Shown here: piece after piece, positions 3,151 to 4,682 of the stretch
How positions within the stretch are numbered: the first letter of the stretch is position 1
How the letters are laid out: each line of letters starts with the position of its first letter
NCBI RefSeq assembly: GCF_900141665.1
Contig: NZ_FQYI01000001.1
Coordinates: 1 to 64,000, forward strand
Length of the DNA stretch: 64,000 bases
Direction of reading: 5' to 3'
Source: Cruoricaptor ignavus
GTDB lineage: Bacteria; Bacteroidota; Bacteroidia; Flavobacteriales; Weeksellaceae
The notes under the pieces: generated by a model
The model's input: the letters and a program-made list of their open reading frames with translations, nothing else
Told to the model about the DNA's origin: nothing
The model's database searches: none
Program-made: the position numbers and the translations under genes

Positions 3151-3180
3151 AAAAAGCCACTTTAGATAGTGGCTTTTTTT
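3151..3180. terminator. Bidirectional terminator overlapping the integrase stop
   Basis: AAAAAGCCACT (3151-3161) pairs with AGTGGCTTTTT (3168-3178), with a 6-nt loop and runs of A and T on the two sides. The TAA stop of the recombinase remnant (3162-3164) sits in the loop. Confidence 0.75.
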
Positions 3181-3385
3181 GCAGTTTCAGCGGTGCTTTT
3201 CTGCTGCAGTAAAGTCCGCAGGCTGGTCATATCTTCGCTGACTTTTTTATCTAGGACTTTGGCGTAATGCTGCGTGGTCTTTATGTTGCGGTGCCCAAGC
3301 ATTTTGCTGACGCTCTCAATCGGGACATTGTTGGAAAGAGTAACGGTGGTAGCAAAAGTATGTCGGGCACATTCTGAGATTTGAT
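3162..3385 (-). pseudogene. Tyrosine recombinase (integrase), 3' remnant
   Basis: On the minus strand the sequence reads ISECARHTFATTVTL, then SVSKMLGHRNIKTTQHYAKV and VSEDM. This is the C-terminal catalytic box of a Bacteroidota site-specific recombinase, with the R of the ARHTFAT box, the H of LGHRNIKTT and the terminal catalytic Y in QHYAK. The frame is blocked by a TAA a few codons upstream of this segment, and no N-terminal or core-binding domain follows. About two thirds of the gene is missing, so the element can no longer integrate or excise by its own enzyme. Confidence 0.85.
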
Positions 3386-3493
3386 TAAAACTTCTTTAAT
3401 ATCCTTGGTGGAAAGAGAGTCTTTTTTCTCTTGTGCATCTAAAAAATTCTTGCAACAATCAGTAATGATACAATAGATTTTTTCATATACTTT

Positions 3494-4028
3494 TTAAAAA
3501 GAATAGCCTATCCTTAAATGAATATCAAACTCTCCGTAGTTTCTATATTTAAACTCGTGGCGGAAACCCAATCCAAAGCCAGCTTCATAATTAAAATGAT
3601 TGCCTAAATTCCTTCTAATCCCCCATTTCGGAACAAAAGAAATGCTCTCAATTGTTTTTAGATTTTTATTGTTAGAGAAGACTACAGCATCCGGCCTGTA
3701 ATTAATTGCAATTCCAAAAAAATTCCCTGAATTGTAATTTATTGGGTAGCCTTTTTCAAGTCTTTTTTCAAGGTTATAATAATATCTTGGTTCAAGTCTA
3801 AAATTTGGATGCCATACAGTGCCGTCTCCTACAAGCCAAATAGGTTCAATTCCAATTTCTGATCTCAGAGCAATTGACCTTGACAATTTTAATTCGTTGT
3901 TTGCCCAAAAACCAACAAAGCCTGTCTGAATATTGAAGATTGATTTTTCGAGACTGGTGGTATTCTCTTGAGACAGTGCTAAAGTAGAAATAGTAAGTAG
4001 AGCAATTATATATATATATATATTTCAT
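3494..4028 (-). pseudogene. Outer-membrane beta-barrel protein, out of frame at a (TA)8 tract (possible phase variation)
   Basis: From the ATG at 4026-4028 the gene reads MKYIYIY and then enters a wrong frame after (TA)8, ending at 3846 as a nonsense peptide. In the other frame the same DNA encodes IALLTISTLALS followed by QENTTSLEKSIF, a convincing signal peptide, and continues open to 3494. The latter part has alternating aromatic/polar segments (GFWANNELKL, RYYYNLEKRL) and ends in LRIGYSF, a typical C-terminal barrel strand with terminal Phe. An in-frame TGA just upstream (4025-4027) means this frame has no start of its own. Nine or six TA units would restore the gene. It lies 14 nt downstream of the lipoprotein gene, so the two are probably co-transcribed. 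A sequencing indel is the main alternative. Confidence 0.65.
4007..4023. repeat. (TA)8 dinucleotide tract directly after a start codon
   Basis: Alternating A/T from 4007 to 4023 begins right after ATGAAA of the barrel gene. Sixteen nucleotides separate ATGAAA from the coding frame of the signal peptide, one more than a multiple of three. Gain of one TA or loss of two would put the gene in frame. Confidence 0.9.
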
Positions 4029-4042
4029 TTTTTGTAATTTGA

Positions 4043-4411
4043 TTATTGTTTTGTAACAGACCAGCTGCCATTTAAAGATCCTTGTTTCCAAGTTCCTGAT
4101 TTAGCATTTAAGTCGCCAGACAGATAAAAACCAGAATTTGAATAGGTGAACATAATAATACCATTATTATAGACTAGTCCATAGAAAGTCTCTGAAACAT
4201 TATTGAAAATTCGTCTCACTTCTATATTGCCAGCTTTATAGACCGTGATTTGCAACTGTCCGTTATCAGAGCCTGTATAAACTCCATACCAGTTTCCCTG
4301 GTATGGAGAAGTGTAATTGCTTAACTCTTTATTAAATTGATGTTGCTCAATAATTCGCTGGCAACCGGTGAAGCAAAATACAATAATTAATAAGAAAGTT
4401 AATCGTTTCAT
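4043..4411 (-). CDS. Small lipoprotein of unknown function
   Basis: A 122-aa protein with a lipoprotein signal peptide: KR after Met, a hydrophobic core (LTFLLIIVFCF) and lipobox FTGC with Cys17 as the lipidation site. The mature part is short and beta-rich (NWYGVYTGSDNGQLQITVY, then TWKQGSLNGSWSVTKQ), suggesting a small beta-barrel or lipocalin-like fold, but I do not recognise the family. It sits 14 nt upstream of the (TA)8-interrupted barrel gene, so the two envelope proteins may form a unit. Base composition is AT-rich like the rest of the island. Confidence 0.6.
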   Translation of the reverse strand: MKRLTFLLIIVFCFTGCQRIIEQHQFNKELSNYTSPYQGNWYGVYTGSDNGQLQITVYKAGNIEVRRIFNNVSETFYGLVYNNGIIMFTYSNSGFYLSGDLNAKSGTWKQGSLNGSWSVTKQ

Positions 4412-4609
4412 TTTTCTTAATTATTTATAGTACTAATCTTACTCCCATGCCATTCTATTGTAATATCATCTGTCGTTGCATTATAACGGACAAAATTATT
4501 TTCTACTTTTGCGGTAGAATTTTGTTTTACTGGCGTTCTGCCAGTTAACCAAAAACGCTGGTAAATCAAAGGATTTAGCAGCGTTTGCATCATTTTGTAA
4601 TAAAACTTG
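4412..4609. other. Intergenic region between lipoprotein gene and tRNA-Phe, with gene-like remnant
   Basis: The minus strand carries a short coding-like frame, LPAFLVNWQNASKTKFYRKS, running from the tRNA 3' end to a TAA at 4496-4498. No start codon or ribosome site is evident. It may be the tail of a gene cut when the island inserted next to the tRNA. An imperfect inverted repeat (CAAAATT/TTCTAC with GTAGAATTTTG) lies near 4490-4535. The promoter of the lipoprotein gene should also lie here. Confidence 0.3.

Positions 4610-4682
<73 letters not shown>

Follow-up and report, generated by a model that had tools for sequence, protein, structure and literature searches.

The gene considered here raises a simple question: why is an outer-membrane barrel protein encoded by an intact reading frame that its own start codon does not enter? 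The gene lies on the minus strand of the window, by which is meant the whole 64,000-nucleotide stretch of DNA that was analysed; it opens a 471-kb contig in a genome of 29 contigs that is 99.98% complete. A run of TA repeats stands between the start codon and the barrel frame. Such a run may mark a surface-protein gene that is switched on and off, a gene that has recently been lost, or an error in the assembly, or the protein may be made in spite of it.

A TA tract between the start codon and the barrel frame

The features of the gene and its surroundings are collected in Table 1. A sequence-only reading of the DNA had described ATG AAA followed by 16 nt of alternating TA, a nonsense frame beginning at the ATG, and a signal peptide and barrel ending in Phe in another frame, and each of these is borne out. 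After (TA)8 the strand of the gene continues ATTGCTCTACTTACTATTTCTACTTTAGCACTGTCTCAA. Reading from the ATG gives 60 nonsense codons and then a stop, while the signal-peptide core and the complete barrel are encoded in a different frame, the codons of which after the tract are ATT GCT CTA CTT ACT ATT TCT ACT TTA GCA CTG TCT CAA; no stop interrupts this frame between the TGA that overlaps the ATG and its own end at 3494. One tract length in three puts the ATG in frame and eight units does not, so that the earlier arithmetic, by which six or nine units would restore the gene, is right, and “switched OFF” is a true description of the gene in this assembly. As in a contingency locus, the number of TA units sets whether an otherwise intact barrel gene is in frame; the repeat is the sole lesion that was detected in it.

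The in-frame part of the barrel protein (P0001) is 169 aa long and matches no Pfam family at E <= 0.1. An AlphaFold2 model, for which eight sequences from the window and from public loci were aligned, has eight strands (mean pLDDT 82.4), and the best PDB match found by Foldseek is the N-terminal barrel of OprF (4rlc, E 4e-4); NspA, OmpA and OmpX come next. The eight predicted strands, the signal peptide in the shifted frame and the C-terminal F together support an exported 8-stranded outer-membrane barrel as the likely product. It resembles the OmpA/OprF/NspA-type barrels (4rlc, 1p4t) in this predicted fold and in its C-terminal Phe, but identity to them is 8-15% with no Pfam match, and it is best regarded as a separate Flavobacteriia family to which no function is assigned.

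Table 1. Positions of the barrel gene, its neighbours and comparable tracts in other genomes
Feature	Position	Strand	Remark
ATG start codon of barrel gene	4026..4028	-	true barrel frame has its upstream stop in the overlapping TGA
AAA codon after the ATG	4025-4023	-	
(TA)8 tract, 16 nt	4007..4022	-	directly after ATG AAA; puts the ATG out of frame
Intact barrel frame	3494..4006	-	rest of signal peptide and 8-stranded barrel, C-terminus GYSF, stop included; no usable in-frame start
Small lipoprotein gene (MKRLTFLLIIVFCFTGC...)	4043..4411	-	intact, upstream of barrel gene; no Pfam family above cut-off
Stub of operon head gene	4417..4454	-	C-terminal tail WHGSKI(S/N)TINN of the 542-aa protein before the lipoprotein in relative G320
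Outer-membrane receptor gene, N-terminal fragment	3374..3486	-	frameshifted within its own signal peptide, then cut off; paralogue with intact start at G000:C18
Presumed tyrosine recombinase, C-terminal remnant (…SECARHTFAT…LGHRNIKTTQHYAKV…)	3162..3380	-	N-terminal part gone; assigned by motif
tRNA-Phe(GAA)	4609..4682	-	cassette directly downstream of its 3' end, same strand
G217 lipoprotein (L148/L124)	G217:C9:83805-83833		OFF; ATG-tract-signal-peptide layout like the window gene
G176 lipoprotein (L145/L123)	G176:C19:193229-193252		frame breaks exactly at tract
G286 lipoprotein (L155/L128)	G286:C1:1380598-1380615		frame breaks exactly at tract
G354 immunity-like gene, ~130 aa (L129)	G354:C1:621287-621302		(TA)8, out of frame
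G355 counterpart, other species (L130)	near C1:1728273-1728291		(TA)7, in frame

Origin, age and setting of the tract

The tract is the only run of at least seven TA units that a pattern search found in the whole 2.23-Mb genome, for which a first-order Markov model predicts about 7e-5 (TA)8 tracts by chance. In a contiguous 464-kb sample there were 98 TA/AT tracts with three units, three with four, two with five and one with eight, and (TA)6, which has three overlapping matches in the real window, had none when the window was shuffled 100 times. A chance tract is ruled out by the shuffles, the genome-wide uniqueness and the Markov expectation; the tract is thus an outlier that repeat expansion, and not base composition, has produced. 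A tandem repeat longer than chance would provide is thus found at the coding start, again as in a contingency locus. Scanned for all units of 1-6 bases, the 464 kb yielded no further long tract of dinucleotides or tetranucleotides, and there is no repertoire of such tracts, either for TA in the whole genome or for all units of 1-6 bases in the 464 kb. Open frames for MutS (860 aa) and MutL (598 aa) are both present in the genome, so that hypermutability through lost mismatch repair is unsupported.

Elsewhere, an (AAAACT)4 hexamer repeat (L110:16677-16701, G000:C24:320677-320701) was seen a few dozen bases upstream of the start of a secreted-protein gene (MKKLFLSVAFSFAGLLSAK, minus strand), where it could affect promoter spacing.

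The nearest orthologue of the barrel gene, in genome G014 (L004/L029, 89% identity), has an in-frame start; it begins ATGAAAAAAATATATATAATT..., giving MKKIYIIGLL, with A7(TA)4, that is four TA units, within a TA-rich start (…AAAATATATATA…). Since the closest orthologue combines a shorter tract with an in-frame start, the shift in the barrel gene is derived. Pairwise comparison of the two gives dN 0.056, dS 0.72 and dN/dS 0.08. With G320 as the outgroup, the branch of the barrel gene carries 6 nonsynonymous and 19 synonymous changes (10 and 14 on the G014 branch), and with L030 as the outgroup 7 and 20. For 19 synonymous changes about 70 nonsynonymous ones would be expected under neutrality, and the counts leave room for no more than about 20% of the branch to have been free of constraint. 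They support strong purifying selection on the barrel gene until recently, the gene having been functional for most of its recent history; the OFF state is therefore young or intermittent, and an old pseudogene is rejected.

The barrel gene lies in a truncated, decaying cassette beside tRNA-Phe. In G320 the order is 542-aa gene, lipoprotein and barrel; here the head gene survives as the tail WHGSKISTINN between the lipoprotein gene and the tRNA, the rest being gone. In several relatives, too, the small lipoprotein gene stands ahead of the barrel gene as its conserved partner. On the other side, the receptor fragment, recognised through a paralogue elsewhere in the genome, breaks off where the C-terminal part of another gene starts, which by its motif is presumed to encode a tyrosine recombinase. 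RteC- and excisionase-like genes farther along are marks of an integrated element, and tRNA-Phe is the probable integration site of the island; a search within it for a directly repeated copy of the 3' end of tRNA-Phe gave no match as long as 10 bases. No clear promoter for the cassette was found at the locus: the promoter-like TACTTTTG of tRNA-Phe (4710-4703) has the cassette's orientation, and TAATTTTG at 4498-4491 has, by eye, no upstream box.

Three further observations concern these surroundings. The receptor and recombinase fragments (3162-3486, minus strand) meet in a recombination junction, which forms the margin of an RteC-type element. The stretch 4490-4600, which separates the tRNA-Phe 3' end from the cassette, holds three short inverted repeats, AACGCTG/CAGCGTT, ACTGGC/GCCAGT and TTCTAC/GTAGAA, which are possibly an attachment region. 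In G014, at the start of a contig (L093:1-60), the orthologous lipoprotein has what looks like a scrambled signal peptide (CPEINYAIRIVFCCISC), through either decay or an assembly artefact of the contig end.

Homologues and TA tracts across the family

Homologues of the barrel gene are patchily distributed: 70 of the 321 genomes from the Chryseobacterium and Riemerella family (Weeksellaceae in GTDB) carry one, and they occur also in other Flavobacteriales; one homologue of 38% identity is carried on a Chryseobacterium balustinum plasmid. The orthologues begin with an ordinary ATG. Eight of 80 distinct homologous loci are disrupted, the barrel gene of the window included, four in the signal-peptide region (the window gene, L014, L017 and L022) and four elsewhere in the gene (L076, L082, L085 and L089). 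Start-proximal disruptions are in excess (nominal, post hoc binomial P 0.007), which selection for switching would predict, as would the liability of A/T-rich signal peptides to slippage (compare PMC2831843). In none of the three other start-shifted homologues does the shift fall at a TA tract; in L014 and L017 it is a shift of a single base within the A run behind the ATG. The starts of the other homologues examined are free of long TA runs. No second member of the species, and no plasmid, phage or viral-contig copy with another tract length, was found; the source genome is alone in its genus among the genomes compared.

Tracts of at least eight TA units are present in 23 of the 321 family genomes, mostly between genes, as judged from one such tract per genome, a few further tracts being left aside. 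Six lie clearly within genes. The frame is broken in five of these, namely the window barrel gene, the lipoproteins of G217, G176 and G286, the tracts of which are (TA)8 or (TA)9, and the immunity-like gene of G354, while a gene of G099 is in frame; four of the five encode exported proteins. Five OFF out of six is indistinguishable from the two thirds expected if the frame does not matter. The immunity-like gene has a counterpart in G355, and over about 550 aligned bases surrounding the tract the two differ in nothing but the number of TA units. The tract length has therefore changed faster than any base, and the pair, (TA)8 and OFF in one and (TA)7 and ON in the other, indicates that TA tracts do toggle frames in Weeksellaceae.

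In the family of the G217 lipoprotein, 3 of 20 homologues examined have a signal-peptide shift, one of them at (TA)8; in the other two (L166 and L174) it falls in a run of A and in a run of T.

From the window gene, G217, G176, G286 and G354/G355 it may tentatively be proposed that TA tracts are an unrecognised, sporadic means of frame-switching in Weeksellaceae (Chryseobacterium and relatives), although we hold this wider proposal to be rather unlikely. The tracts would arise where accessory genes of surface lipoproteins and barrels begin with an A/T-rich signal peptide, as well as in an immunity-like gene, and would turn these genes ON or OFF. The family-wide set of tracts is nevertheless a more interesting lead than the barrel locus alone.

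Proposed slippage inactivation, its alternatives and known systems

Taking these results together, we lean slightly towards a recent inactivation of an accessory gene by slippage, reversible in principle and without maintained switching. The barrel gene would be carried beside tRNA-Phe by a cassette that moves horizontally and is partly degraded, with a start that was naturally TA-rich before the expansion, as in the nearest orthologue. Slipped-strand mispairing would then have lengthened the run to eight units in this lineage and so uncoupled the ATG from the frame of the signal peptide and barrel; no barrel protein would then be expected, and further slippage in this strain could restore the frame. 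The simplest account is the loss of a presumably dispensable gene from a cassette that is itself decaying. Against plain inactivation, the barrel gene has no lesion besides the tract, the lipoprotein gene upstream is intact, and the four signal-peptide disruptions among the eight in the family would fit selection for reversible, start-proximal switching.

The main rival is that the tract is a contingency element, at which slippage flips the gene OFF and ON in single cells, the sequenced clone being OFF. The layout matches that of signal-peptide repeat switches such as Helicobacter pylori oipA (PMC10564699). The strong recent purifying selection on a gene that is now OFF points the same way, as do the in-gene tracts of relatives in exported or immunity-like genes and the one-unit difference between G354 and G355. 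However, the genome holds a single such tract, the cassette is truncated on both sides and the starts of the other homologues examined carry no long TA run; furthermore, mutS and mutL are present, and mismatch repair corrects dinucleotide slippage. We regard such a switch as possible but somewhat improbable. Of the phase-variable locus put forward in the sequence-only reading, what stands is the OFF state, the derived expansion of the tract, the predicted exported barrel, the recent purifying selection and the one-unit toggle in a related pair; against it are the lone tract, the decaying cassette and the four homologues disrupted outside the signal-peptide region, a pattern of decay which that reading had itself named as counting against a switch.

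It is very improbable that the real tract has another length and that the gene is intact. Consensus errors do concentrate at repeat tracts, and the remainder of the gene is intact and constrained; but any short read spans a 16-nt tract, dinucleotide stutter is modest at this length, and an assembler is unlikely to invent a TA expansion. Alternatively, the barrel could be made despite the shift, from a non-standard start (an ATA or ATT within the tract or directly behind it) or through slippage in transcription or translation. The openness of the barrel frame back to the TGA, and the constraint upon it, would allow this, and yet the frame has no ATG, GTG or TTG upstream of 3886, with initiation at the ATT the signal peptide would lack a basic N-terminus, neither a notable fold nor a hairpin signal was seen in the tract region (folding z -0.66), and the orthologues use a normal ATG; we consider expression of this kind very unlikely indeed.

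If switching is real, slippage-based surface variation would be added to what the literature searched reports for the family, and there is a short list of loci that can be tested by repeat counts in existing reads. If, on the other hand, this is decay, the in-gene TA runs of these genomes are still mostly frame-breaking, and annotation should flag them as possibly switchable genes and not as sequencing faults or ordinary pseudogenes. No specific report of slippage switching in Flavobacteriia was found in the literature searched, which is weak evidence of absence as most subscription papers lie outside its coverage.

Among known systems, phase variation of Bacteroides surface proteins likewise concerns a Bacteroidota bacterium, but it works through invertible promoters and invertases (reviewed in PMC11868660), that is by DNA inversion, whereas the change proposed at the barrel gene is one of slippage. 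Homopolymeric tracts located at the 5' end are hot spots of gene inactivation, for example in Listeria inlA (PMC2831843), where start-proximal slippage also inactivates the gene of an exposed protein, often one way in practice; the runs there are of A or T, in contrast to the dinucleotide run here. In Haemophilus influenzae a (TA)9-11 tract of similar length is also tied to a surface structure, but it lies in the promoter of hifA/hifB and alters the -10/-35 spacing (PMC2651432), whereas the barrel-gene tract lies within the coding sequence and alters the frame. The resemblance to oipA (hopH) is that an early dinucleotide run in an outer-membrane-protein gene, CT repeats in the signal-peptide region, sets the frame by its number of units and hence the ON or OFF state (PMC10564699); the run in the barrel gene is of TA instead of CT and is known from one genome, whereas the length of the oipA run is polymorphic population-wide, with both ON and OFF isolates. 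The observation itself is real, and the barrel locus is a plausible addition to this known kind of repeat-shifted genes.
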